DNA of 21,665 nucleotides from a virus: positions 1-21,665 of the IMG/VR virus record IMGVR_UViG_3300031785_000064; one strand, 5' to 3'. Shown piece after piece: positions 1 through 19,075 of this stretch. How positions within the stretch are numbered: position 1 is the stretch's first letter; every line of letters begins with the position of its first letter. The notes under the pieces were generated by a model. The model worked only from the letters and a program-made list of their open reading frames with translations, was not told where the DNA came from and did not search any database. The translations under genes and the position numbers were made by a program.

Positions 1-3000
1 AACAAACTGATTTGCGCTGCCCGGAGTAATTCTAGCTTCATCAAAAGCTTTATACAGCGCCTTAAGTTTACCTTCTTTAATAGCTTGATTATAATCAGCC
101 TCTTGAATCCGTTGTATAGCAATCTCAAGACTTTCCCCTGGTTGCGCAAGTATGTAACGAGCAGTAAGTTCTGCTTCTTTTTCGTCCATAAATATATTGC
201 CGTTAAAATCTTTACGCGGCCGACCAGTTTCAGGGTCATTCATCAAGAAGTCTATAAATTCATCAATACGCTGTTCAATAGCAGATTCCGACAGCGCACG
301 GCCGCCTCCAAAGTTTTTACGTTCACGTATTTGTAGGTACTGGTTTCCGTCTGGATCTTTGTTGTACTCGAACGCTTCTTTATATAAAGCGCGTAACTCC
401 TTAGCTTCGCGGGTGCTAAGTTGTTCTGTTGGTATTGTTTCATCTTCAACTTCCAACATTATTTTTTCTATGCGTTCAGAAGTCCATGAGTTTTCACCGG
501 AGCCAGTATCTATACCAAGGATGTCTACCATCTTATTGGTAAAGTATGCTTCTTTTGCCGGTGCTTCTTGGAGCATCCCACGTAACCCGGCTTTGCCAGC
601 GTCAGCCTGGAAAAAAGCTGCAATAGCTTGGCCAGCGGGCCCCATAAATTGAAGGCGGGCGTTTGCGGTAGAAATAAACTTTTTATAAAAACCTGTTGTC
701 TTACTAGCGTACGCTTTGTTACCGGCGCGCGTAGCTTTTTTTATCCAGTCATTATCGATAGCGTTAATTAAATCGCGGGACTCTATACGTTGTGAAGCAC
801 TCAAATACTGCCCCGTAGTGTCCTTACGTTGTACATTGCGTTTTTTATTCGTTGCAACAACGTCATCCATATACGTCTTAAAGAAACGGTCTTGTTTAAA
901 ACGGCCACCAAGAGCACGATTAACGGCAGCAAAGAATCTTTTTAGACGCCCAGCTATTCGTTTAAATTTAGACTGTGTACCGTCAGTAGCTTTTATTGTG
1001 CTGTCATAAACATACTTACTAACTTGGTCAGAAAACCACTCTTCAAACCCGATACCTTCATCCATGTATTGGACGGGGGCGCCTTCGGCTGCGCGAGCTT
1101 TCTTAAACGAATCAAACATACGTTTACGTAGTTGGGGGTTAGCCTCGATTTTTGAAATTTCTTCAGAGAAAAAGACGTGGCCGATTTCATGCCCGATAGC
1201 CAATGCGGCGCCTACATCACTTTGTGCATACTTGCGGCCAAAAAGTTTTTCATTGACTACAACAATTGCTGACTGGCCTGCTAAAAATTCTACGCCTGCT
1301 GCGTTCTCTGGATTTTTTTGCATTTTTTCAACGCGTTTACTTAACGACTCGCGCGCCCAAGCAAACCTACCCCCAGGACCGGTATACGCATCAAAATTAT
1401 TTTGTAACTCCGTCAAAGTTATAAAGTTCATAGGTGTTGAAATACCAAGAATTTTTTCAGCCTGGGTAATTACTTGTTGCGCAGCTTTGTCAAAACTACC
1501 AAACCGTCTTGGTTCAGGCACTTGCTTACGTTTTTTCTTTAGAGGGTCTACAAGTTGTTTATGCCAGGCTGTTGCGGTAACTGACGGATCAGCAACTTGG
1601 CCCATGCGGGCCCCCTCTTCTACAACTAAACGTGTTCTAGGAGCCCCGCGATCTTCCACAGGGGTTTTACGTGTCTTTTGTTTTACTTGTACTTTGGGGC
1701 GACCTTTTGAGACTACGGGGTCAGAGACCTTAAGTCCTAGTTCAGACGCGGCTAAACTAAGCTTGCTATTAGCTAGAGTTCTCTTGCGTTGTTCTGCGCT
1801 ATTACGATTCCACCACTTGATACCGTTTAAAGCTTTTTTCATTGCATCAATAGATGACTGCGGCATACCAGTAACCGGTATTTCAACAACGATATCGGCT
1901 ACTGTAGATGGTGCTTCGTCTACATCGTCTTGCAGTATTTCAGTAAGAAACGTATTTAACCTATCACCAGATATATCTCGACTGCCAGCGCCGTTTAGCG
2001 TGCGAACGTTATTGTTAGCGATCCATTGCCTTACTTCTTTTGGATCAGTTTTCGGTGTTACAACGATATAAGGCTTGTTTAACTGTTTTGCAAACTTAAC
2101 GGTTGCCTTAGAACCCGGTGTTAAATTGCCTGGGTCTCGGACTACAATTACTGTTCCATCAGAATCTTTTACATTTTTACGTGTACGAACTGCATAATTT
2201 GCACTCTTAGATTCTTTTAATCCATATGCTTGCCCGAGAAGTTCCGGTTTGTTTCCACTTTCTGTTTTAAAACCTAGAGGCGCTGTTCCACCAGTTGAAA
2301 TACCTAAGTCAGAAGCAACGTCTAAAAAAGAAACGTCAACACCGTCCTGCCCACCTGATATTACTTTGACTAGCGGCTTCATTTCCGGTGCCGCTTCACC
2401 ACGCATACGAAGTTCAAAAAATGTAGTGTACGTAACGTCTTGAGTTTCGCCCTCAAACACGCCTGCTTGTTGAGCCCTGTTAAGCACCATGCCAGGCAAT
2501 TGCTCAGTTAGCCCAGGCACAGATTCATCCTCTACACCAAACCGATCGCGAGTAAGCTCTCTATCTTTTGCTTCTTCAAGCTGTAGTTGTCGCTCATTAT
2601 CAAGCTCATCCCTAAAACCTTCTTGCAGGGCTAAGCTTTTTAGTTCCGCGTACTCTTCTCTAATACGAAGCCCACCAACAGTTCCCTCAAGGTCCTCGCC
2701 TAAACGGTAGTATAGTTCGTCCCGAGACATGTTTGCTACCTCTACAAAATACCGTGCAGCAACATCACCAGCTATTTGATCATCTGTTTTAGCGTTTATA
2801 GCTTCAATGCTTTGTTCAGTACGAGTGTCTGCTATAGGAAATGGGTCTCGCATCCCAACAACTTCGCGTAAAGACATACCTTGATTACCATTGAAAAACA
2901 CAAAACGACTTAGTACATCTTCAGGTAATCTTCTAGTGCCTGCTAAAACTTCTGTTATATCGAGTGGCTGACGGCGGCCGTTGCTGTCTGTATAGAAGAA

Positions 3001-6000
3001 GCTATACCCCCGCATAACAGCTTCTTGCATACCGCGGACAAGCCCCGCTTTTGCTAACCTAGGATCACCTGTATAAAGAGGGTCGCCAACAAGAGCCCGA
3101 TCTTCGATAGCGTTCAATCGAATACCGCCGTTTATTAACGTCATAAACTGAAATTTTATAACCGGCTTACCGCCTTTTGAACCAATCTTACCGCCAGAAA
3201 TTTCAAAGGGAGACTCTTTTATAAATTTGTCAGTTTGATTAGAGCGTTCAATGCTGGCCATAGTGCTGTCAAAAACTTTTTCGCTTCTGTTAGCACCTTC
3301 TTTATCTACGCGATATCCTTCATCTACTATAGCTCGGTCTTTAGGCACAGCTCTGATTACTACTTTTACAGCACCAGGGTTGTTAGCAATAATATTGTCA
3401 GCGATGTTTTCATCGCCTGGTTGAAACTCTGCATTTATATTACCGTCGATTTTAAAATCTGGATAAAAATTATAAAGAGCTGACTCAGTGCTATCAAAGA
3501 TAAGGTCATTAAGAGCTTTCAACGCCTGATCGTTCATGTACTTAGAAAACTGTAAAAAGTTTTGTACAATCGCCGGGCCTTCTGGCGCATAGTGATTAGC
3601 TATACGTAACGTGTAATACGCTGCTGCGTTAACCGGTGTAACGATACGGTTAACTTTTTCTACCTCAGTAGTTCGTTGATTTGTGTCTGTGTCTTCGTTG
3701 GGTACAAATTCTGTTTCCGTAATAAACAACGGATTTTCTGGAGACGCTTGGATAACAGTTTTGCGTTTATCTGGATCTAATAAAACTGTGTATCCTTCGC
3801 CGTCTTTACCAAGTGGGACAATACCATTTTGTACTAACCGCACGGCGGGTGTTGCTTCAATCTCAGCTGCTAGTTCAGCACCTGTAACTTGATCTGCGGC
3901 TTCAGTAGGGTCAAGCTGACTTACATCATCCACAACACCGCTACGTTCTGAAGTAGCTATGTTACGTTCTGCACTATCTACAAAAGCTTGATCCGCTGTA
4001 TTAAGCTCTGGTTCGGCGGTTTGAGTAGCTGGAGCTCTTTGCACAGGAGTAGGATCAGCAGGGGCTGGACGTTGCGGCGCTAGCGGTGCGGGTGCGGGTG
4101 CAGCTTCGGCTTCGGGCGCTACACTTGGTGCGCTCGTCCCAAACAATCTAGGGTCACGCATCTCAGCCATAGCAATATCGTTCATACGATTTTCATAAGT
4201 GGCGGTAGATTCGCCCTCTAACTGTGCGTATTCAGTATGAGCTTTTTCATGCAGTTCTACAAAACGAACCCAGTCATCAGGCTCATTGATGTATTCATTT
4301 ACAAACTCGTCTGGTAAAGGATTGACTCCTTCAACTCTTGGGCTTTCCCAAGGTTTTTTGTCAAACTGTGATCGTAGATACTCTTCGTCAATAAATATTG
4401 TGTCGTCGCCTTTACGATAAAAAGCGCCGACAAACACGTCTGGTTTACCGGTGCTTTTTTTATAGGCGCCGCGTCGTACTTTTGCCGGTGCATCACGACG
4501 TGTTCTATTAAAATCGCGAACATCTGCCTGACCTTCAGTTGCTCGTTGTTCTTCTTGAGCCATAGCCGCAAGGTCTGCTTGAGTAACGGGTTGCGCGTCT
4601 GGTTCTGCAACAGGTGGTTGCTCTCTAACAGGCGGGGCAGTGGGCGTTGGCGTAGGTGCAGGAGTCTGAATATTCCGGTCGTTAAACAGCGGGTTGTTAG
4701 GATCAATCTGTCTGCCAGACGCTGTTCGGCGGCGTTCAGGATTATTCAGCGGCACTTGAGTTGTTGTAGGTGCAGGAGTAGGTGCAGGAGTAGGTGCAGG
4801 AGTAGGTGGCGATGGGCGCCCCATTACTTCATTGAGAAATGCAGCCTCATCTGCTAATAGGTCGGCGTTGCGCTCACGCGCTTGGGTTACTTCTACATCT
4901 TGCGCTACTGGGAACAACTCTCCTTGTACACCTTGCTCGGGTGCGTCTAAGTCTACAGTAGGTTGTTCGGGTTGCGCCGGAGCCGTACCAAGGTTGCGTG
5001 TATCAAACAGCTCTGCTTGGGTAGACTCATCAACAGCTTGCGAATCAGCTACTGATTGAGATGTCTGGTCAAGCATTTGACGAGCTTGCGCAACTACTTT
5101 ATCCGCAGTCTCTTTAGTGCTTCTGGCTACGGCGGGTATGCCACCCACAACGCCGCCCGCAGTACCAAACGCACCACCAGCTACAGCACCTAAGAACGCA
5201 GCCTCGCCTCTACGCAAGTTTGCTTCCTGAGCTGAGTAATTATCGTCAACACTTCTACGTTGTTGGATAAGTATTTCTTCTTGGGCTAGTTCTGCGGCGC
5301 CTTCTTTAGCAGAGTTTTTAGCTACCTCTTTACCTAAGTTAGCGGCAAATGCTGCAAAAACACCTTGGCCGTCTTTACGCGCTTTTTTTGTAGCTAGTTT
5401 TAGAAAGCTGCCAACCATAGCAACTTCTGTTGCTGTATCAATCAAAGCTATTGGAGCACCAATAGCTAAGGCTTGGCGTGCACGATCGGAGTCAAGCTCT
5501 ACGCCTGCTTCATCAAACTCCCCAAAAGACTGACCTGAGCCAGAGATGTAAGAAGGTATAAACGCGCCAGTTATTGAACCTGCTTTTGCAGCACTAGCTA
5601 CAGATTTAGCTGTACCGGCAGCTACCGCAAGTTCATCTGGGGTGAGAGTAATACCCTTTCTTTGTTTTTCTGCTATTTCTTTCAATAGTTGTTTAGCGGC
5701 TGCTTTGCCAGAGGTGTTCATCAACCCCCGCCCCAACACAGCTGTTAATCCACCTACACCAGCACTAGCAGCTGTTACTGTTGCCATAGGCGTAACCATA
5801 CCAACACCACTAGTAGTGAGGTCTAAAAGCCCAGAAAAGGTAGGGGCAGCAACGAAATCTTCAAAACTTATAGTACCTTCAAGTAGCTGACCACCTTGTT
5901 CTCTAGCAAGACGACCAAGTTCAAGGTTTTCTAAAGCTGCGTCTTCGTCACCAGACAGCGTATTAAAAATAGCCCCCATGTAGTCCATGTCGGCTTGTAG

Positions 6001-6234
6001 CGTACGCATACCTGATTGAGCACCACGTCGGAACGTCTCTGCAAAAGTATCTGCAGGGGCAACCTCATCAGATGTAAATCTTCCGGTATCAAGCAACGGG
6101 CTGTCTACAGCACGCCGCGACTCGGTAGTTATACCTTCCCTAGTACGTCTTTGGGTATCGAGTAGCGGTTCACGGCCAGCACTGTCGTCAATGAACCTAC
6201 TGTCGTCAATAAATTTAGTAATTTCATCAGCCAT
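1..6234 (-). CDS. Giant polyvalent virion protein, C-terminus outside window (at least 2078 aa)
   Basis: The frame starts at ATG 6234, 11 bases after the preceding gene, and stays open for exactly 2078 codons to the window edge, so the stop lies further left. By reading the translation: Gly/Ala-rich hydrophobic segments at about residues 135-175, 255-285 and 345-370; Pro/Thr/Ala linkers near 476-490; a metalloprotease-type motif HEKAH at 662-666; a YpsA/SLOG-like Rossmann domain at about 1289-1436 (SGGQDGVD, later DSDGTVIVV); a second zincin motif HEIGH at 1682-1686 with acidic residues EEWFSD about 50 residues on, a plausible third zinc ligand. Position after three smaller virion-type genes matches T7 gp16 or P22 ejection proteins; the hydrophobic N-terminal part could form a membrane channel. 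The domain mix fits the known class of phage polyvalent proteins delivered with the DNA. The ribosome site is weak (no clear AGGAG), so translational coupling is likely. Exact enzymatic roles are inference. Confidence 0.85.
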   Translation of the reverse strand, partial: MADEITKFIDDSRFIDDSAGREPLLDTQRRTREGITTESRRAVDSPLLDTGRFTSDEVAPADTFAETFRRGAQSGMRTLQADMDYMGAIFNTLSGDEDAALENLELGRLAREQGGQLLEGTISFEDFVAAPTFSGLLDLTTSGVGMVTPMATVTAASAGVGGLTAVLGRGLMNTSGKAAAKQLLKEIAEKQRKGITLTPDELAVAAGTAKSVASAAKAGSITGAFIPSYISGSGQSFGEFDEAGVELDSDRARQALAIGAPIALIDTATEVAMVGSFLKLATKKARKDGQGVFAAFAANLGKEVAKNSAKEGAAELAQEEILIQQRRSVDDNYSAQEANLRRGEAAFLGAVAGGAFGTAGGVVGGIPAVARSTKETADKVVAQARQMLDQTSQSVADSQAVDESTQAELFDTRNLGTAPAQPEQPTVDLDAPEQGVQGELFPVAQDVEVTQARERNADLLADEAAFLNEVMGRPSPPTPAPTPAPTPAPTTTQVPLNNPERRRTASGRQIDPNNPLFNDRNIQTPAPTPTPTAPPVREQPPVAEPDAQPVTQADLAAMAQEEQRATEGQADVRDFNRTRRDAPAKVRRGAYKKSTGKPDVFVGAFYRKGDDTIFIDEEYLRSQFDKKPWESPRVEGVNPLPDEFVNEYINEPDDWVRFVELHEKAHTEYAQLEGESTATYENRMNDIAMAEMRDPRLFGTSAPSVAPEAEAAPAPAPLAPQRPAPADPTPVQRAPATQTAEPELNTADQAFVDSAERNIATSERSGVVDDVSQLDPTEAADQVTGAELAAEIEATPAVRLVQNGIVPLGKDGEGYTVLLDPDKRKTVIQASPENPLFITETEFVPNEDTDTNQRTTEVEKVNRIVTPVNAAAYYTLRIANHYAPEGPAIVQNFLQFSKYMNDQALKALNDLIFDSTESALYNFYPDFKIDGNINAEFQPGDENIADNIIANNPGAVKVVIRAVPKDRAIVDEGYRVDKEGANRSEKVFDSTMASIERSNQTDKFIKESPFEISGGKIGSKGGKPVIKFQFMTLINGGIRLNAIEDRALVGDPLYTGDPRLAKAGLVRGMQEAVMRGYSFFYTDSNGRRQPLDITEVLAGTRRLPEDVLSRFVFFNGNQGMSLREVVGMRDPFPIADTRTEQSIEAINAKTDDQIAGDVAARYFVEVANMSRDELYYRLGEDLEGTVGGLRIREEYAELKSLALQEGFRDELDNERQLQLEEAKDRELTRDRFGVEDESVPGLTEQLPGMVLNRAQQAGVFEGETQDVTYTTFFELRMRGEAAPEMKPLVKVISGGQDGVDVSFLDVASDLGISTGGTAPLGFKTESGNKPELLGQAYGLKESKSANYAVRTRKNVKDSDGTVIVVRDPGNLTPGSKATVKFAKQLNKPYIVVTPKTDPKEVRQWIANNNVRTLNGAGSRDISGDRLNTFLTEILQDDVDEAPSTVADIVVEIPVTGMPQSSIDAMKKALNGIKWWNRNSAEQRKRTLANSKLSLAASELGLKVSDPVVSKGRPKVQVKQKTRKTPVEDRGAPRTRLVVEEGARMGQVADPSVTATAWHKQLVDPLKKKRKQVPEPRRFGSFDKAAQQVITQAEKILGISTPMNFITLTELQNNFDAYTGPGGRFAWARESLSKRVEKMQKNPENAAGVEFLAGQSAIVVVNEKLFGRKYAQSDVGAALAIGHEIGHVFFSEEISKIEANPQLRKRMFDSFKKARAAEGAPVQYMDEGIGFEEWFSDQVSKYVYDSTIKATDGTQSKFKRIAGRLKRFFAAVNRALGGRFKQDRFFKTYMDDVVATNKKRNVQRKDTTGQYLSASQRIESRDLINAIDNDWIKKATRAGNKAYASKTTGFYKKFISTANARLQFMGPAGQAIAAFFQADAGKAGLRGMLQEAPAKEAYFTNKMVDILGIDTGSGENSWTSERIEKIMLEVEDETIPTEQLSTREAKELRALYKEAFEYNKDPDGNQYLQIRERKNFGGGRALSESAIEQRIDEFIDFLMNDPETGRPRKDFNGNIFMDEKEAELTARYILAQPGESLEIAIQRIQEADYNQAIKEGKLKALYKAFDEARITPGSANQFV
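4766..4809 (-). repeat. 12-bp tandem repeat encoding a Pro-Ala-Pro-Thr linker
   Basis: Three perfect copies plus a partial fourth copy of the unit gtaggtgcagga (plus strand). Read on the minus strand inside the giant gene they encode repeating PTPA residues at about residues 476-490. Similar proline/alanine runs occur at about 4640-4665 and 4080-4105. They look like flexible linkers between the hydrophobic N-terminal part and the first metalloprotease-like domain. Confidence 0.85.
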
Positions 6235-6245
6235 CTAAAACCAAT

Positions 6246-8519
6246 CTACCGATACCTAGCTTGTTTTTCTAACCGTTCAAGAATTTGTGGGCCGGTCTGG
6301 GGCATTAGTTGGCGGAACTTACCTACAGTCATAGTTCCTTCATATACTTCAGCGGCTTTCGGGCCCTTCTCAGTTTCAGTATTTCTCACACCAACTCTCT
6401 TCCCGTCTGCACTCATAATAAACAACGATGACGGGTTTTGTACCCAATCGCCGCCAGGAGATTTGGTGCGCCAAACATCTCTAAACCATTCTTTAATACC
6501 GTCCGAACCGCCATAAGCCAATTGATATATAACCCTATTTGTTTCGGCTGCTGTAAGCGAGTCAGACACCAGTTTATTAAACCTAGTGCCCACTCTGCTC
6601 GCAGCAGGACTACTTTGGAACAAGGCGTTTAGTTCTCGTATATGACCCGTCAAACTAGCGGCAAGATTTTCACCTTTAGTAGTGTTGTCTGGGTCGGTAA
6701 ACGTATCAGGATTAGAAAGAAGTGTTGCTATCTTGCCTTGAAGTTCTTGGAATTTAGACTGTTCAGCCGCTGTTCCTTCATTTAGTTCAAAAGCATCCTG
6801 TCGGGCAGCACGGTTGTTACTTTGTGATGTGTTCACTTTACCTGCTGCATCTATACGCTGATTGGCTCTATCCATCGCAGTTTTAGCAGCATCACCATAC
6901 ATTATGAAGTTAAGAGTTTCTCGATATAACTCTTGGGGGGTTTGATTAGATTTTCGTTCCCCGTATTTAGCAAAAGCAGCAGCAACATACTTGGCTTCTT
7001 TAGTTGGTATGTCCAAACGCATTAGGTCTTCACGTGTTGTGACCCCGTAAGCACGCAAAATCTGCGCTGCGTTAGCAGCATCGTTTCGATCCATTTTATC
7101 AAACAATGCATTAGCTTCTTTTTCAAGGTCACCTCTAATATCCGTAAGGACACTTGTTACGTCGTTAACGACTGTTTGTTGCTCATCGCTTGCTTTAGAA
7201 GGAGTTTTTATTGACTCCAAGGATGCTCTAGCTTTGTTGAGCAGCTTTGATTGGTTTTCATTTGCGCTTGGATTATTACCTCTACCTGTCCGTCGTGACT
7301 CTAAAGTTTGTATTCTATCCTCTAAAAAATCCTCAGCACTCATAGCAAGTTCTTCTAATTCCGCGTTTACAGAATCAAGACGAGACTGAGCGGCAGTAGG
7401 ATCATAGCTTGGATCGTCTTTTCCCTTCTCTATTCTTGCTTCAATCGCTGCTTTGCTCGCACGTAAGTTTTTAATTCTGCCTCTTATAGCAGAAACGCCC
7501 AAAGCATTATCGCTCATAGCGTCTAAACGAGCGTCTATAGTTGACACAGAAGGCGCTTCTGTAAGTGCCTCCGCGTTTGGATCAGTAACCTCTTTACCCT
7601 CAGGTAATTCAGCAGTAGGTGTTTCACTTTCAGTCGAATCAATTTTTTGTTCGGGCTCACCGCTTATTATAACATTTTGAAGACGTTTTATTAGTTCGGG
7701 CGACGCACCCAACGAAATAGCCGCGGCTTCTAATTCTTCGGCTGTAGTTTCAGGATTAGATATAATGTTCAAAACAGCGTCGCGTTTTGCTGCATTTTCT
7801 TCAGGAGAGTTACCAGTTAGTGTTTCACCCATAACCTCTGAAAGTATTGCGCGGTTAATGTCTTCTGCGTTTAGGGGGGTTTCCATCCCTACCAACTTAT
7901 CTATTAATTGAACATTTGATTGAAAATTGTCAGAAGCATTTAAACCCCTACCAGTAGCGCGGGCTATTCCAATACCAGAATTAACTAAGTTCGTAAGTTT
8001 ATCTGCCGTAAAAGTTACAGCTGGGTCATCATCGTTAGGAGTCCCAAACACTGAAAAGATTTTTGACAGGGCGCCGGGTTTATCTTCTTTAACATTCGCA
8101 ACATAAACAGGCTGCCCGCCCGGTCCCAAACGGGGGCTGCCGTCTTCATTTGGCGGCGCCAAAGAGAACCCATCAAAATTATTTCGTGTCACAGAACCAT
8201 CTACAGCTATGCCGTCTATCAAGCCGTTAGCAGAGTGTACATTGACTAATGTGTTAATAGCGTTTCTGCCCACTGGGTTTTTGAAAAGATCGTTAACTTG
8301 GGCTGTAGAAAGTTTAAAATCAAACTGTCCTTGATCGTCAAAAAGACCTACGCCGCTTAAATCTGACAGCACAGATAACGCATCGCCTACTCGGTCAGCT
8401 TGCCGTTGCTCATTAGCTTCTTGATTAAGTATCTTTCGAGACTCTATTTGAGTCTGAAGATACTCATTACGGGGTGTCGCATACCTTGTGTTAAGATTTG
8501 ATAGACCAAGTAAACTCAT
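6246..8519 (-). CDS. Large internal virion protein, T7 gp15-like in size and position
   Basis: A 757-residue protein of unknown family. Its start overlaps the stop of the preceding gene in an ATGA arrangement, so the two are probably translationally coupled, and the giant gene follows 11 bases after its TAG. No signal peptide or membrane segment is visible. The middle part (about 340-430) is charged and helical, with alternating Ala, Glu, Arg and Lys consistent with coiled coil; the rest is rich in Asn, Asp, Ala and Thr, typical of phage structural proteins. The size is close to T7 gp15 (about 750 residues), and it stands in the same place: after a small virion protein of about 200 residues and before a very large one. 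I infer that it is part of the DNA-ejection apparatus; a tail-associated protein is the alternative. No catalytic motif was recognised. Confidence 0.8.
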   Translation of the reverse strand: MSLLGLSNLNTRYATPRNEYLQTQIESRKILNQEANEQRQADRVGDALSVLSDLSGVGLFDDQGQFDFKLSTAQVNDLFKNPVGRNAINTLVNVHSANGLIDGIAVDGSVTRNNFDGFSLAPPNEDGSPRLGPGGQPVYVANVKEDKPGALSKIFSVFGTPNDDDPAVTFTADKLTNLVNSGIGIARATGRGLNASDNFQSNVQLIDKLVGMETPLNAEDINRAILSEVMGETLTGNSPEENAAKRDAVLNIISNPETTAEELEAAAISLGASPELIKRLQNVIISGEPEQKIDSTESETPTAELPEGKEVTDPNAEALTEAPSVSTIDARLDAMSDNALGVSAIRGRIKNLRASKAAIEARIEKGKDDPSYDPTAAQSRLDSVNAELEELAMSAEDFLEDRIQTLESRRTGRGNNPSANENQSKLLNKARASLESIKTPSKASDEQQTVVNDVTSVLTDIRGDLEKEANALFDKMDRNDAANAAQILRAYGVTTREDLMRLDIPTKEAKYVAAAFAKYGERKSNQTPQELYRETLNFIMYGDAAKTAMDRANQRIDAAGKVNTSQSNNRAARQDAFELNEGTAAEQSKFQELQGKIATLLSNPDTFTDPDNTTKGENLAASLTGHIRELNALFQSSPAASRVGTRFNKLVSDSLTAAETNRVIYQLAYGGSDGIKEWFRDVWRTKSPGGDWVQNPSSLFIMSADGKRVGVRNTETEKGPKAAEVYEGTMTVGKFRQLMPQTGPQILERLEKQARYR

Positions 8520-9065: not shown

Positions 9066-9695
9066 CTATAAGAACGAGAACGCTGACTCACCTAGAGTAG
9101 CATCTCTTTTGCCGTCGGGCGCGGAATCATCCAACATCTTAGGTTGGAAGAACGAGCCTCCAGTTTCTATATTAGACTGGCCGCTCGAAACTACCGACTT
9201 CGCAATTTGTAAAATATTGTTTGCTCTAGCTATATCCCCACGTTGCTCGTCTGCTAGTCTTTTAAGGGCAGTGCCTTGCTCAATCTTAGCTAGCTGACTA
9301 AAGCCCCTGTTGCTTATAGATTTTTGTTGCTGTCCCATAGCAAGAACGTCCGCTTGCGCTTTATTTTGAAAATCAGAAGCTTGTGTGTCGGCTTGACTCA
9401 AACTTTGAAGTCGAGCCTGCTCAACATCACTTGTAAAACCTAAATCTTTTGTCCTAGCAAGACTAATCGGGCCAACAGTTTGCATAACATCCGCACCAGC
9501 TCTAGACCTAAGATTACTGCGCACATTTTCCTGTTGCAGTTGACGAGATATTTCTGGCAAAATTCCACCATAGTTAGTAGTCCAACGCTGCCACTCTGCA
9601 GAGGCAACCGCGGCCTGAGTTTTTTCAGCTTCAGTAGGTTTGTAATCCGACGCCTTTGGTTTTTTAATGCCCAAAATTTTTCCTAACAGCCCCAT
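9066..9695 (-). CDS. Small internal virion-like protein B (209 aa), T7 gp14-like position
   Basis: A 209-residue protein starting with MGLLGKILGIKKPK, a short basic N-terminus seen in many phage internal virion proteins, followed by a long Gln/Ala/Ser-rich helical stretch. The ribosome site AGGAGA lies about seven bases before the ATG and overlaps the stop codon of the preceding connector gene. Size and position before a 757-residue and a giant protein match T7 gp14 (about 196 residues), the smallest ejected protein. No enzyme motif is seen. Identity as an ejection protein is inference; a tail-stem component is possible. Confidence 0.75.
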   Translation of the reverse strand: MGLLGKILGIKKPKASDYKPTEAEKTQAAVASAEWQRWTTNYGGILPEISRQLQQENVRSNLRSRAGADVMQTVGPISLARTKDLGFTSDVEQARLQSLSQADTQASDFQNKAQADVLAMGQQQKSISNRGFSQLAKIEQGTALKRLADEQRGDIARANNILQIAKSVVSSGQSNIETGGSFFQPKMLDDSAPDGKRDATLGESAFSFL

Positions 9696-9704
9696 ATCAG
9701 TCTC

Positions 9705-10388
9705 CTAAATAAAAGATTTTCTGCCAGCATATTTACGTGTCTTACGCCCGCTGTGCAATCCACCATAACGTACTTTAGCAACCACTGGATTATCGGCCTG
9801 ACGAGCGCGCCGCTCCGCGTACACCATGCCGTTATTAAATAGCTCACTGTAAATTTGCGCCGCCCCTAGATCAGTCCAGTCTTTCGCGGGCATACGGCAC
9901 AACCGAAAGATAGCGCCGTTAATAATTGCATCTCTATAATCAGTCATTATTTCATCATCACAAGCAGTAGAAGTTTGAGTAGGTTTAAGTGCTACTCTAA
10001 TTTCTACGCCCTGTGAAACAGTGGCGCTGGGGACTGGTACAAGATTAACAATGCTCAAACCTTGTTTAATAAAGTACTCTGGAGTACCCGTGTCATTACG
10101 CCAGTTTTCTTTACGTTGCTCAAGCAAGCCACTTGAAACAGGTTCAAGAGTTTTACCTTCGTGTGTCATCCACACAATTCGATGTACAACCGTTCCGGTA
10201 GGTGGCTCTAAGTCGTATTCGTAGATACCAGCCACCACAGTAATTGGGTCCAGTTGTTGTTGATAAACGTCTGTCTTTTCACACAGCTCGATCGCAGCAG
10301 ACCGTATCGCTCTTTCAGCTATAACTTCAGGGCAAGCCGGAACCATTGAAATGACATCAGGTAACAATGTTTCATATTTTATGGCCAT
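9705..10388 (-). CDS. Neck/connector-type structural protein (227 aa)
   Basis: A 227-residue protein with an N-terminal helical part and a central beta-rich part (YEYDLEPPTGTVVHRIVWM and following), then a helical segment and a very basic C-terminus (SGRKTRKYAGRKSF). This layout is common in adaptor or nozzle-type proteins that bind below the portal. Its ATG shares one base with the stop of the upstream gene (TAATG) and an upstream GGAG serves as ribosome site, so both are probably made together. Comparable gene pairs follow the capsid gene in podovirus-like phages. I cannot assign it to a named family with certainty. Confidence 0.75.
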   Translation of the reverse strand: MAIKYETLLPDVISMVPACPEVIAERAIRSAAIELCEKTDVYQQQLDPITVVAGIYEYDLEPPTGTVVHRIVWMTHEGKTLEPVSSGLLEQRKENWRNDTGTPEYFIKQGLSIVNLVPVPSATVSQGVEIRVALKPTQTSTACDDEIMTDYRDAIINGAIFRLCRMPAKDWTDLGAAQIYSELFNNGMVYAERRARQADNPVVAKVRYGGLHSGRKTRKYAGRKSFI

Positions 10389-12979: not shown

Positions 12980-14043
12980 CAGACGATATCTCCTCGCATG
13001 CGCCTAATAGTTGCTTCGGGCAGCGCGTTAAACTCGTCTTCGCTCATTTGCTCTAAGTTAATGACGTTTTCGCCACGTGACGAAGAGCCTTCACCTTCTA
13101 ATTCTGGCGGTTGGGCTTCCGCAGCTTTAAGTTTTTTAGCTACTGTAGCCTTTTTCTTGGCCGCCTGCTCTACTTGTGGCTTTGCTAGGGCTGATTCTGA
13201 TTCAGTTTCCCCTGCAGCCTCGAGGTTACGGTCCTTAACCACGTACTTAACCGCTCGGCCCAAAGCGTCAACGGGGTCATAGCCTTTAAGAATAAACGCG
13301 TCACGAAGTTCGACAACTTCATCTGTGTATTCTTGGCTAAACTCTGAAGAGTTTTGGTCAAATACTGGATAAGCTTCTTCCAGGTCTGCTGCAGCTTTCT
13401 GTAAAGCTGTAGCTTGAGCAGATTGTTGAACCGTTTGGCCCATTTTCTGCTCCATTTCCCAAGATATTTGAGTTTTTTCCGCAGCTCGAATTTCTTTACG
13501 GAGAGCGACAGCTTTTTCAGCTTCTCCGTCAAGAACGAGCTGTTGATATTCAATTTCTTTAGCATCGAAGTCATACTCCTCTGGCGCTTCAGCAGGTTGT
13601 TCGGCAGCAGCCTTCATTTCTTCTACCTGTTTCTGTAAAGCTTTCTGTTTAGCTAACACTTCATCAAGGCGAGACTTAGGCACCATAGGGCTTTTTGTCT
13701 CCGGTTCTGTTTTTTCAGCGGCAAGAGGCATTTCTTCCTCTTTATCATCGTCTGATTCGGGTTCCTCTTCAGGTTGCCCTTCATCAGGCTCAGTATCATC
13801 GCCGTCATCGTCTTCATTATCGGCTGTTTGGACTTCTTCGTCCGTAGTTTCCTCTGATTCTTCAGCTTCAGCGGTAATTTCTTCCGTTTCTTCAGCTTCT
13901 TCAGCTTTTTCTGGCTCCGGTTCGGGCTCTGGAAAGCTTAAATCTAGATTTTCTGGCGCCTCTAAGGGTTCTGCCCCCGGCATAACGTCAAAAGTAAGCG
14001 CTTTTTCCTCAGTCGCTTCCTGATTTTCCGTGTCTTTACTCAT
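12979..14043 (-). CDS. Capsid assembly scaffold protein (354 aa)
   Basis: A 354-residue protein between portal and capsid genes, the usual place of the scaffold that guides head assembly and then leaves. The first 125 residues are extremely acidic, with long Glu/Asp runs and Pro; residues about 125-225 are charged and helical with coiled-coil heptads (SRLDEVLAKQKALQKQVEEM); a Lys/Ala-rich hinge follows at about 285-320. The C-terminus, NVINLEQMSEDEFNALPEAT followed by a basic RRMRGD end, is typical of scaffold proteins of phages with P22-type portals. Ribosome site AGGAG precedes the ATG, nine bases after the portal stop. No protease gene is seen nearby, so removal may not need cleavage. Confidence 0.85.
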   Translation of the reverse strand: MSKDTENQEATEEKALTFDVMPGAEPLEAPENLDLSFPEPEPEPEKAEEAEETEEITAEAEESEETTDEEVQTADNEDDDGDDTEPDEGQPEEEPESDDDKEEEMPLAAEKTEPETKSPMVPKSRLDEVLAKQKALQKQVEEMKAAAEQPAEAPEEYDFDAKEIEYQQLVLDGEAEKAVALRKEIRAAEKTQISWEMEQKMGQTVQQSAQATALQKAAADLEEAYPVFDQNSSEFSQEYTDEVVELRDAFILKGYDPVDALGRAVKYVVKDRNLEAAGETESESALAKPQVEQAAKKKATVAKKLKAAEAQPPELEGEGSSSRGENVINLEQMSEDEFNALPEATIRRMRGDIV

Positions 14044-14052
14044 TACGCACTC

Positions 14053-16164
14053 CTAGTTTTGCGTGGTTTGGCCCGTTTTTGCGCCAGTGTTCATAGCAGT
14101 GGTGGCCAATTTTGCCGCTGCTTGAGTTCTAGCCTGTGATTCACGGGTTTCTTTAGTCATACCCGCAAGTTCACGACGCAAAGATAAGTTTTCTCTTGCT
14201 ATTTGAAGCTCTTGTTGCAGTTCAGCTACTTTAAGCTGTGGATCTGCCTGAGCTGCGCCAGCTTTTGCCTGAGTTAACTGAGCGTCTGCAGCTATTTTCA
14301 TAACCTCGGCCTCAAGTTTAGCGACTTGTAGCTGCGCTTCCTGCATAGCGAGCTGTTGCTGCATCTGCATAATCTGCATTTGCTGTTCAGACGGGTCTTG
14401 GCGGAGACGCGCTGCAAGCTCTGATTTCTTAGCGAGGTGTGAATACTGAACAATAGCATCGTCCGGTACAGCAACACCGGCTTGACGGAGTGCTAGAGCC
14501 TCCGCGAACTGTACTTCATCAAATGAATCACGCGCTGGCATAGTACTAATGACAACATCATACTCACCCAGAGTTAGATTATTAATAATGTCACCATCAT
14601 CGGTCAGCTGATTAATAATCATTTCTTCCCGTTGTTCCATCGGGTCATCATCTTTAGTAATTTTGATGACTCTTTCCTCAGTGTAAAAGGTTTGGATAAG
14701 GTCCAAAATCTTTTCGGCAAGGTACTGGCGGGTTTTGCGCAAGTTATCCAACGGCACCTGAATCATAATGACGCCGCGGTTCTGTTTTGCTTGTATCGCA
14801 ATACCAGAAACCTCAGCACCGTCGGTGCCAAGCATAGAGTCATTAATACCACTGATAGACTTTATATTAGCCTGCGCCTTTTGACTGATACGGTCGAGAC
14901 CGGTTGGGATCTGATTTGGTTGTATCTTCGCGGGCGGAGAAGACCCACGATTATACTCAAGAACCAAACCGGTCTCTGCCCCGTGTTCCTCCAAATCCTC
15001 AGCCTGCATATTAGTAAGAGAGCCTGACTCCACTACCCAACCACTGTTAGCTGTAGTGTTAACAATGTGTAACTCTTGTGAAGCGATCTTGTTCAGCTGC
15101 TCTTGAGGAGAAAGCAGATTGCGCACCATACCGAACGGGCGCCCGCGCCTGAAATAAGCAAAGAACGGGACAATAGTGAAGTCTTTATATGGAGACCAGT
15201 CGTCATGCAATACAACTTTATCGCACGTAACAGTCCAGCGTACTTTCTTTTTAGTCTTGCTATACATGTTGAGACCGTAGTCTTTCGCAAACTTTTTAGC
15301 TTTGCGGTCAGACCACGCCTCCGGCACTTCACGTTGGTCACCAGTAGTTGGGTCTACATAACATTCGACACGAGTGACTTTACGATGCTGGCGCTCAATA
15401 ACACGTAGGGCTTTGACAGTTCGATACTCATCTTCACCAGGGACAGTGGTACCGAGATAATCATCAGATTCATCCAAGTCCCCGTAGCGTGTCTCACTGT
15501 ATTCCACCGAGTCACGGCCGAAACTATTACCGTTCTCGGCAATAAACCGAAGGCGGTCCGCTTGTTCTTGTCCGTACATTTCCTCGATGTCATCGAGCGT
15601 CATCCAGCGGGTGTAGAAGAACTCGTTCCAAGTTTTTGGATCATAGTCTTTGGCGTCAGGGTCAATAACAACATCCAACGGATCGAGCGCTTTAACACGT
15701 ACTTCGCCTTCTACATGATCAGAAAAATCTATGCGCGCGTCAAAATAGCCGCGGCCGTCCATAATCAAACCATCAGAAAAAACTTGCTGCTCAACCCAAT
15801 CAAGTTTGTTGTTATCTGCAATTTGCATATACAACTTCGTAAGCGTATGCGCAACTTCTTCCGACCCGCCACGGCGAGGTTTGAACTTTATATCTGCACG
15901 TCGATTAGACTGCTCGCCTAGTACAGTATTAACTGTAGGTAATATTGTATTTATGGTTAGGGCCGGGCGACCTTCTGCATCAAGATTAGCGACATCCATA
16001 GCATCCCATTGTTCACCCTGATAATAAGCATCGCATTTTTTGGCTACATCAATGTAATCAATATGGCCGTTGTCGCGGGCTCGTGTATATCGGTCCCACT
16101 GGTCGTGCGCTAGTTTATCTTCTTCACCTGGGGTTAGTCGGGCTTTTTTACTATGTACTGTCAT
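14053..16164 (-). CDS. Portal protein, P22-like family
   Basis: About 703 residues, close to the P22 portal (725). Twelve copies form the ring at one head vertex through which DNA enters and leaves. The N-terminal part shows the family pattern: a helical stretch with CDAYYQGEQWD, then RPALTINTILPTVNTVLGEQ and NRRADIKFKPR. The C-terminal 130 residues form a long Gln/Ala-rich helix (QMQIMQMQQQLAMQEAQLQV), comparable to the helical barrel that extends into the P22 head. I prefer ATG 16164 (MTVHSKK), which begins one base after the terminase stop; a GTG at 16173 would add three residues and overlap that stop. No strong ribosome site is visible, so coupling to terminase translation is likely. The scaffold gene follows after nine bases. 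Confidence 0.93.
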   Translation of the reverse strand: MTVHSKKARLTPGEEDKLAHDQWDRYTRARDNGHIDYIDVAKKCDAYYQGEQWDAMDVANLDAEGRPALTINTILPTVNTVLGEQSNRRADIKFKPRRGGSEEVAHTLTKLYMQIADNNKLDWVEQQVFSDGLIMDGRGYFDARIDFSDHVEGEVRVKALDPLDVVIDPDAKDYDPKTWNEFFYTRWMTLDDIEEMYGQEQADRLRFIAENGNSFGRDSVEYSETRYGDLDESDDYLGTTVPGEDEYRTVKALRVIERQHRKVTRVECYVDPTTGDQREVPEAWSDRKAKKFAKDYGLNMYSKTKKKVRWTVTCDKVVLHDDWSPYKDFTIVPFFAYFRRGRPFGMVRNLLSPQEQLNKIASQELHIVNTTANSGWVVESGSLTNMQAEDLEEHGAETGLVLEYNRGSSPPAKIQPNQIPTGLDRISQKAQANIKSISGINDSMLGTDGAEVSGIAIQAKQNRGVIMIQVPLDNLRKTRQYLAEKILDLIQTFYTEERVIKITKDDDPMEQREEMIINQLTDDGDIINNLTLGEYDVVISTMPARDSFDEVQFAEALALRQAGVAVPDDAIVQYSHLAKKSELAARLRQDPSEQQMQIMQMQQQLAMQEAQLQVAKLEAEVMKIAADAQLTQAKAGAAQADPQLKVAELQQELQIARENLSLRRELAGMTKETRESQARTQAAAKLATTAMNTGAKTGQTTQN

Positions 16165-16165
16165 A

Positions 16166-17710
16166 TCACGCACTCATCGCTGACTTAATTTTAACTTCTT
16201 TACCAAGATAGCGGAGCTTGTCTCTCCAACTTGGCGGTTCAACAATACGTTCGTGGAATGTAGAAAACTCCGTCATCATTAATCCAATCCATGCCAACGC
16301 ATCAACTTGGTCATCATGAACACCATTGGGGAAACGTAAAAGTTCTGCCACCAACGGGCCAGTAAATACTTCGTTACGCGGCAAGAACACCATCCCCTGC
16401 TGCATACGACCTTGAATGGCTCGTGCTCGAGCTTCTTTATCGCGGCGACCTACTTTCAAATCTTTGAAGTAAGCCTCATTAAGACCACGCTCCCTAGTAC
16501 GTTTTTCTAGAAACGGACCAAGCGCCATCTCAATATGGCCTTTTTCGATTCCGATAATCGAAGGCCTCCATAATTCATAACAGTCTAAAATACGTTCGAC
16601 AAGCTCAAAACCATCGAACCGTCCACGGATGACATCGACAACAAATAGATTATCGTACTCGTCAATACCAACCACCATACCAACTGAGTAGTCATTTCTA
16701 TCTCGCTTTCCTATAGCTAAGTCCCACGCACAGTAATAACGTAGTCGATCTTGGTCGATGTCCTCTCTGTCGTAGTACTGGATCATGTCTCTTGTAAAGT
16801 AATCACCATCATCTGCAACTGGATTTTGCTGATACAACGCTGACCAATCTCTAGGGCCCACGGCTCGTTGTATACGCTCCAGTGCATTAAGGTCATATCG
16901 TTCTGGGTGAAGTGCTTCTCCGGCTTCGCGGAACTCTTCATCTTCTTCTGCTATAGCGGGGTACTTTACTACTTCCCATTCGTCGCCACCTTCAGACATA
17001 TTTTTAAGAAGGCGCCCGACTAAATCGTCATCATGCCAGCGGGTCATAATTACAAGTATACCGCCGCCAGGCGCAAGACGTGTATATGCGGTGGAGGTGT
17101 ACCAGTCCCATGTGCTTTCCCGGTTATTTTGTGACTCTGCGTCCTCGCGGTTTTTAACAGGGTCATCAATCACTAATACATGCGCACCTTTACCAGTAAT
17201 ACCACCACCAACACCAGCGGCAACATAGCCACCACCGGCAGACGTTAGCCAGGCTTCAGCTGACTGCGAGTCAGGATCCAGGCGTGTTTTGAATGTAGTC
17301 TTGAACGACGGTTCACGAAGAGTTTGCCGTACTTTACGGCTGAAGGTCATAGCCAACGCTCCAGAGTACGAACAGCTTATGAACTCGTGTTGTGGGTTAC
17401 GTCCTAAATGCCAGGCTGGAAAGCCGACACTAGCAATAGTTGATTTACCTAGCCGCGGTGGCATTTGTAATATGAGTCTTGGGCTTTTTTTATTTACAAC
17501 ATCTTCAGAAAATTTTTCTAGTCTTTTACATATATCTTTGTGTACCCAGCCAGCCATGTAGTCAGGGTTGTTTCGTTCGATAAATGGTAACAGTCGACGG
17601 CGGGTAAGGAACCGTGCTGCGAGTTCTTGCTTCGCTAGTTCTTCGGCCGTGGCCCGTTGTTCGACTTCTTGGGGTGTTGGCTGATCAGGATCAGGCATAG
17701 CGTCCTGCAT
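16166..17710 (-). CDS. terL: Terminase large subunit (packaging ATPase/nuclease)
   Basis: This enzyme pumps DNA into the procapsid through the portal and cuts the concatemer. Counting from ATG 17710 (514 residues): Walker A PPRLGKST at 84-91; Walker B VLVIDDP at 178-184; coupling motif MTRWHDDDL at 222-230; RNase H-like nuclease with Asp330 in CAWDLA, Glu389 in GIEKG, and HDDQVDAL at 465-472. All key residues are present. The gene follows the small subunit and overlaps or abuts the portal gene, the standard packaging order. There is no ribosome site before ATG 17710, and the same frame stays open upstream and encodes a zinc-ribbon-like segment (see 17711-17812), so the true start is probably upstream. 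Confidence 0.96.
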   Translation of the reverse strand: MQDAMPDPDQPTPQEVEQRATAEELAKQELAARFLTRRRLLPFIERNNPDYMAGWVHKDICKRLEKFSEDVVNKKSPRLILQMPPRLGKSTIASVGFPAWHLGRNPQHEFISCSYSGALAMTFSRKVRQTLREPSFKTTFKTRLDPDSQSAEAWLTSAGGGYVAAGVGGGITGKGAHVLVIDDPVKNREDAESQNNRESTWDWYTSTAYTRLAPGGGILVIMTRWHDDDLVGRLLKNMSEGGDEWEVVKYPAIAEEDEEFREAGEALHPERYDLNALERIQRAVGPRDWSALYQQNPVADDGDYFTRDMIQYYDREDIDQDRLRYYCAWDLAIGKRDRNDYSVGMVVGIDEYDNLFVVDVIRGRFDGFELVERILDCYELWRPSIIGIEKGHIEMALGPFLEKRTRERGLNEAYFKDLKVGRRDKEARARAIQGRMQQGMVFLPRNEVFTGPLVAELLRFPNGVHDDQVDALAWIGLMMTEFSTFHERIVEPPSWRDKLRYLGKEVKIKSAMSA

Positions 17711-18577: not shown

Positions 18578-19075
18578 CTAGTCACAAGAAAAATCATAAA
18601 TATTTTTTACCCACCAATAGAGCGAGGCTTCATCTAAGTTATTCTTTATTATATTTACGCGGGCGCAAACAAGTTGGATGTTGTCGATTGTGTAATCCTC
18701 GGTGCTGCGGATGCGGTCAATACTGGCGTTAAACTCTTTGCGTTCCCCGCGATCGTAATGGTGTGTCATATATACACCGCTCAAAGCACACCGGCCGCCT
18801 TGAGCCTCCCAACATGCTAAAACATCTTCAACAGATATTTCCCACTTATATTTACCCTTCTTTGTGACAGACGATTTATGTTTACTGTACAAGTCTTTTA
18901 GGAAAAAAACTGAGTCTTGCGAGTTGCGGTACATACGTCTATTAGAGACGCATTCGTTACAACGGTTTACACGGCCGGTTCCATCGGTATCGTTTTGAGA
19001 TTTAGCTATAGGGCCAAAATCTGATAGCGGCTTGGTCTCGCCGCAGTACAAACAAGTCTTACTCTTCACTGACAT
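18578..19075 (-). CDS. HNH-type endonuclease with N-terminal zinc finger
   Basis: A 165-residue protein. Residues Cys8/Cys11 and Cys39/Cys42 form a CxxC...CxxC zinc finger. The C-terminal half has the pattern of one HNH subgroup: GRCALSG (94-100), NASIDRI (116-122), DYTIDNIQLVC (127-137) and VNIIKNN (140-146). In this subgroup the first His is often replaced or shifted; here His105/His106 are the candidates, so the catalytic centre is not certain. HNH enzymes next to terminase genes often help cleavage during packaging; others are free-standing homing endonucleases. It is the first gene of the leftward block, has no clear ribosome site, and lies beside an AT-rich divergent region that probably holds its promoter. 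Confidence 0.82.
   Translation of the reverse strand: MSVKSKTCLYCGETKPLSDFGPIAKSQNDTDGTGRVNRCNECVSNRRMYRNSQDSVFFLKDLYSKHKSSVTKKGKYKWEISVEDVLACWEAQGGRCALSGVYMTHHYDRGERKEFNASIDRIRSTEDYTIDNIQLVCARVNIIKNNLDEASLYWWVKNIYDFSCD

Follow-up and report, generated by a model that had tools for sequence, protein, structure and literature searches.

A SLOG-superfamily domain embedded in a giant phage protein and its possible role as injected cargo

Introduction

The virus record IMGVR_UViG_3300031785_000064 of the IMG/VR database was analyzed over its entire length of 21,665 bases (hereafter the window). A giant open reading frame at one end of this record encodes a protein of at least 2078 amino acids (aa), and deep within this protein lies a circularly permuted YpsA (cpYpsA) domain of the SLOG superfamily. 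The domain is real, complete and intact, and cpYpsA recurs inside giant proteins of phages as a selected pattern. We propose, with about an even chance of being right, that the domain is an exchangeable cargo module of a podovirus polyvalent ejection protein and acts early on a host nucleotide. SLOG clades were reportedly defined by Burroughs et al. in 2015. No description of cpYpsA embedded in giant phage proteins was found in the searchable literature, and neither the term cpYpsA nor crAss-like together with SLOG was found there.

Results

Identification and predicted structure of the cpYpsA domain

Positions 1927-2370 of the window, read on the minus strand, translate without a stop codon as residues 1289-1436 of the giant protein. 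An earlier, sequence-only reading had assigned this segment to the YpsA-like SLOG family from an ordered set of motifs, and the translation agrees exactly, with VKVISGGQDGVD, GGTAPLGF, LKESKSANYAVRTRKNVKDSDGTVIVV, ATVKFAKQLNKPYIVV and NGAGSRD occurring in that order. In a hidden Markov model (HMM) search the segment matched PF12694 with an E-value of 6.6e-34 and 117.2 bits (cut-off 26.2) over profile positions 1-142 of 145, and the full giant protein matched the same profile with an E-value of 5.5e-32. The only clear solved relative by sequence was 3IMK (E-value 7.2e-16). The structure of the domain was predicted with AlphaFold from a 71-sequence alignment, giving a predicted local distance difference test (pLDDT) score of 94.7, and this model superposed on 3IMK (Foldseek, VIA-align) with a Z score of 22.9, at 1.4 Å over 144 residues with 36% identity. 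The next structural matches were molybdenum cofactor carrier proteins (Z 9.7-9.9) and ShosA (Z 7.3); ThsA was not among the matches listed, an absence that carries no evidential weight. Taken together, the model, the structural matches and an invariant GGQxGxD identify a Rossmann-like fold of the SLOG superfamily with a glycine-rich first loop. The family assignment is thereby upheld, the sequence-only reading having named a missing HMM match and a fold unlike the Rossmann type as the outcome that would overturn it. The window domain and 3IMK, a "putative molybdenum carrier protein" of PF12694, share profile, fold and pocket motifs, but 3IMK is a chain of 158 aa.

Conservation of the pocket was compared between giant-embedded and other copies. 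Nearly every column without variation in 54 non-giant sequences is invariant in 17 giant-embedded ones too, the exceptions being P1319 and G1327, each kept in 16 of the 17. G1315 and G1316 are likewise invariant in giant-embedded and other copies. Viral sequences had been gathered with GGQ and NVKDSD patterns and cellular ones with GGQ and TGGT patterns, so invariance within these three motifs is partly built in; the invariance of R1350, T1351, G1374, T1378, N1414 and G1417 is independent of the collection patterns.

Recurrence and exchange of cpYpsA among giant phage proteins

A query was built from five cpYpsA copies, two of them giant-embedded (those of the window and of locus L002), and the best 80 viral loci were taken. 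In 19 of these 80 loci (16 of them distinct) cpYpsA lay within frames of 1810-6792 aa, the remainder being 148-324 aa long, as against one of 80 cellular loci in a giant frame (Fisher p = 1e-5), a contrast to be read with the bias of the viral list toward relatives of the query. When the query was instead derived from standalone copies, six of 80 viral loci had the domain in frames of 1000 aa or more. The sole cellular giant-embedded copy (L104:2-8290, at least 2762 aa) comes from a metagenome-assembled genome of the cyanobacterium Rhizonema and possibly represents a prophage or a contig of phage origin.

Outside the cpYpsA domain the giants are mostly unrelated to each other, and between otherwise unrelated giants the domain itself is 76% identical (L015 and L031) or 73% identical (L012 and L013). 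A tree of 97 sequences requires eight changes between the giant-embedded and other states, at least three of which are forced by well-supported branches. The window copy groups in this tree, with moderate support, with those of L008, L024 and an open-ended short contig, L064. Among 35 viral giants found by way of the zincin-like domain of the window protein (described below) none carries cpYpsA, and cpYpsA is therefore regarded as an exchangeable module. The ratio of nonsynonymous to synonymous substitution rates (dN/dS) was about 0.13 in two giant-embedded pairs, which indicates purifying selection on the domain in those two pairs.

The company kept by cpYpsA varies from giant to giant. The largest example, at L009:2-20380, is a single open frame of at least 6792 aa across the whole 20.4-kb locus and combines cpYpsA with ART-PolyVal and zeta-toxin domains. 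An SF1 helicase is present in the L012 giant, a GNAT domain in that of L014 and an AlkB-like oxygenase, adjoining cpYpsA, in that of L062, and the L011 giant has a match to LPD38 below its cut-off. The L041 and L062 giants match proteins of crAss-like phages that are annotated as RNA polymerase subunits, and that of L041 further matches a protein of a Cellulophaga phage whose structural annotation is by similarity. The cpYpsA-bearing giants are polyvalent-type proteins. The window protein is itself a large protein joining unrelated domains (cpYpsA and zincin-like), and it is encoded among virion genes. As a separate observation, two cpYpsA giants that otherwise differ both contain DUF7831 (L045, residues 1721-1808; L056, residues 2679-2784).

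The zincin-like domain of the window protein

Downstream of cpYpsA, residues 1567-1811 are predicted to form a zincin-like metallopeptidase domain. Across 24-25 aligned relatives the HExxH motif and most of FEEWFSDQ are conserved, and the downstream glutamate is invariant. The model of this region, from whose alignment one row taken from a record fetched by annotation was left out, had a pLDDT of 80.0, and its top structural matches were zinc metallopeptidases at modest Z scores of 6-8.6. The HExxH, the downstream acidic ligand and the metallopeptidase fold thus occur together in a region whose structural signal is modest but consistent. The sequence-only reading had placed the SLOG domain between protease domains; this holds on the downstream side only, where the zincin-like domain with its HExxH and invariant glutamate lies. 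An isolated upstream HEKAH was rejected as a second protease, having no Pfam match and no relatives in a single viral-contig search. In the sister giant L008 (L008:6509-14665) cpYpsA is intact and HEIGH is replaced by KELGN, and by its motif the L008 domain is a probable pseudo-peptidase.

Genome setting

Coordinates of the features discussed are collected in Table 1. Because the window is the complete virus record and the giant frame reaches the contig end, the giant gene is present without its 3' end. The phage was placed near Aeromonas phage phiA008 and the Pseudomonas podovirus KPP25 on the basis of its terminase and portal identities. The giant protein is encoded in the same block and on the same strand as these two genes, and the order of gene sizes from the capsid gene through the giant is identical in L008 and the window. 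A 757-aa frame adjoins the giant in the window, a 681-aa frame that in phiA008 and an 809-aa structural protein that in KPP25. At the corresponding end of the KPP25 block lies ORF088, a 2009-aa protein annotated as structural. The C-terminal parts of the L008 and L024 sister giants, and that of phiA008, are homologous to this protein; no direct match was found between ORF088 and the window protein, the C-terminus of which is cut off. Residues 57-344 of the window protein were matched in other giants by pairwise comparison, and the N-terminal 1278 residues used as one query gave no confirmed relatives. PADLOC matched neither the domain nor the giant protein nor L081, and the sole PHROGs match was a weak one to a family without assigned function. 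The late-gene synteny and the structural annotation of homologous giants make it plausible that the giant protein is packaged in the virion and injected at infection, as the sequence-only reading had suggested.

Table 1 Features of the window and of the giant protein that it encodes.
Feature	Residues of giant protein	Window positions	Strand	Basis or remark
Giant open frame, at least 2078 aa		1..6234	(-)	Uninterrupted; truncated by contig end; final gene of late block on contig
N-terminal region	57-344	5203..6066	(-)	Common to related giant proteins, identity about 31-39%
Isolated HEKAH	662-666	4237..4251	(-)	Unconfirmed as protease
cpYpsA SLOG domain	1289-1436	1927..2370	(-)	PF12694 match, AlphaFold model, 3IMK superposition
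GGQDGVD loop, predicted nucleotide-binding	1294-1300	2335..2355	(-)	G1294, G1295, Q1296, G1298 and D1300 invariant in 71 sequences
RTRKNVKDSDGT	1350-1361	2152..2187	(-)	R1350, T1351, N1354 and T1361 invariant
PGSKAT	1373-1378	2101..2118	(-)	G1374 and T1378 invariant; no LOG-motif glutamate at T+3
NGAG	1414-1417	1984..1995	(-)	Usual family form NVAG; N1414 and G1417 invariant
Zincin-like metallopeptidase domain (predicted)	1567-1811	802..1536	(-)	Relatives in 35 viral loci; model; structural matches
HEIGH zinc-binding motif	1682-1686	1177..1191	(-)	H, E, G and H invariant in aligned relatives
FEEWFSDQ	1730-1737	1024..1047	(-)	Probable third zinc ligand E1731 or E1732
757-aa open frame		6246..8519	(-)	Immediately upstream of giant; no family match
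Portal protein		14053..16173	(-)	40% identical to KPP25 portal
Terminase large subunit		16166..17710	(-)	53% identical to phiA008

Two further frames of the window were noted. A 129-aa frame at 13185-13574 (minus strand) is nested, in a different frame, in a 354-aa scaffold-like gene, and is probably mechanical. Upstream of the packaging genes, a small protein at 18578-19075 (minus strand) has CxxC pairs in a layout that by eye resembles an HNH endonuclease.

Discussion

Proposed role and alternatives

Under the proposed mechanism, the giant protein would be made with the late genes and then packaged and injected alongside the DNA. The zincin-like domain may cut the giant protein, as has been proposed for polyvalent proteins. 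Once in the host cytoplasm, the cpYpsA domain would bind, and possibly cleave, a small nucleotide, most plausibly ADP-ribose or an NAD-derived molecule, for instance a signal of Thoeris-type defence, and the host response would be blunted ahead of phage gene expression. This injected-SLOG model follows from joining two published lines. Iyer et al. 2022 (PMC9503650) predicts that viral YpsA-clade SLOG members act on defence signals derived from ADP-ribose, by sensing or degrading them, and describes these members as typically standalone, as exemplified here by the "SLOG family protein" of Maribacter phage Molly_1; among packaged domains, the abstract of that paper names ART, Macro, NADAR and Nudix but not SLOG. 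The suggestion of the sequence-only reading that the domain could sense or remove a host signal nucleotide is consistent with this prediction. The phage YpsA-clade SLOG proteins that the paper places in the NAD+-ADP-ribose network belong to the same superfamily as the window domain. Iyer et al. 2017 (PMC5512222) described polyvalent proteins, in a main text without SLOG or YpsA, and these resemble the window protein in being giant and multidomain, lying near virion genes and having a zincin.

Several observations weigh against the proposed role. LOG-type SLOG enzymes have a catalytic glutamate in a GTxxE motif. In a motif-based alignment this glutamate is not conserved, the position three residues after T1378 being F in the window and mostly A, L, F or Y in the family, and nucleotide cleavage is therefore less certain than binding. 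The link to NAD metabolism is weak, with NADAR accounting for two and phosphoribosyltransferase for two of 113 neighboring proteins scanned at 42 standalone viral loci, and no NADAR or Macro gene was recognised in the window. We know of no ligand or activity for any of the cpYpsA proteins found here.

The domain could instead be a sensor which, upon encountering a host nucleotide, steers other regions of the giant protein in which it sits (the zincin-like domain here; nuclease, helicase or ART elsewhere). The variety of enzyme domains in the giants is in keeping with this, as are the sensor roles put forward in PMC9503650 for SLOG fused to nucleic-acid enzymes; however, the partner domains and their relative positions differ widely, cpYpsA is intact beside the degenerate KELGN zincin of L008, and the 35 zincin relatives do without cpYpsA, and we consider a sensor unlikely. 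It is quite improbable that the domain is a DprA-like, nucleic-acid-binding SLOG engaged in DNA handling at ejection or host takeover. ShosA, a DprA-like SLOG protein, does have the same fold, and L008 gives a weak DprA match over the same stretch, below the cut-off, but the cpYpsA assignment far exceeds any DprA match and the nearest structures are 3IMK and the molybdenum cofactor carriers.

Late action is to be weighed as well, with a giant protein made late and left unpackaged and its domain serving, for example, nucleotide metabolism in phage production. Packaging of the giant is an inference, and standalone phage copies lie beside varied metabolic genes; against this, the giant gene follows a portal-to-capsid block, homologous giants are annotated as structural and other giants contain polyvalent-protein domains, which leaves late action with little likelihood. 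That the domain is a decaying, functionless passenger is already disfavoured and seems very improbable: in its favor, most relatives of the window giant lack the domain, but the invariant residues are retained, the dN/dS in the two embedded pairs is low, and gains or losses occurred independently at least three times. The likeliest role is that the domain binds or cleaves a host nucleotide early, plausibly one of ADP-ribose type. The broader claim that several phage lineages inject SLOG domains in giant ejection- or RNA-polymerase-type cargo, and that a host nucleotide alarm signal is bound or destroyed before phage gene expression, is offered tentatively, and we find it rather doubtful.

If correct, the proposal would describe a virion-delivered counter to nucleotide-signalling defence. 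In the literature examined, known phage disarmers of ADP-ribose signalling act after gene expression, whereas the pattern of SLOG in giants points to delivery at time zero. RyDEP (PMC13232231), for instance, is active during infection from 1.5 h, whereas delivery inside a giant protein is proposed for the window domain. The anti-Thoeris sponges and RyDEP would share with it the same class of ADP-ribose signal; the likeness of anti-Thoeris proteins lies in this proposed target only, without demonstrated relation in sequence or fold. The list of polyvalent-protein domains would also gain a nucleotide-handling class, and a compact, well-folded domain of 150 aa with defined conserved residues is suited to direct ligand-binding tests.

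Neighbors and fusions of other cpYpsA copies

The genes adjoining standalone phage copies are varied metabolic genes. Neighbors of cellular copies belong mostly to ordinary metabolism (transaldolase, Sua5), with no clear link to defence among them. Read by eye, the frame at L004:7593-8453 resembles DUF4326 fused to cpYpsA and is followed about 1 kb downstream by a Macro-like frame (9605-10063), which adds weakly to the link with NAD metabolism. At L137:7959-9269 a cellular cpYpsA is fused to a domain of the IF-2B family, relatives of ribose-phosphate isomerases, a fusion that possibly hints at a ribose-containing ligand.
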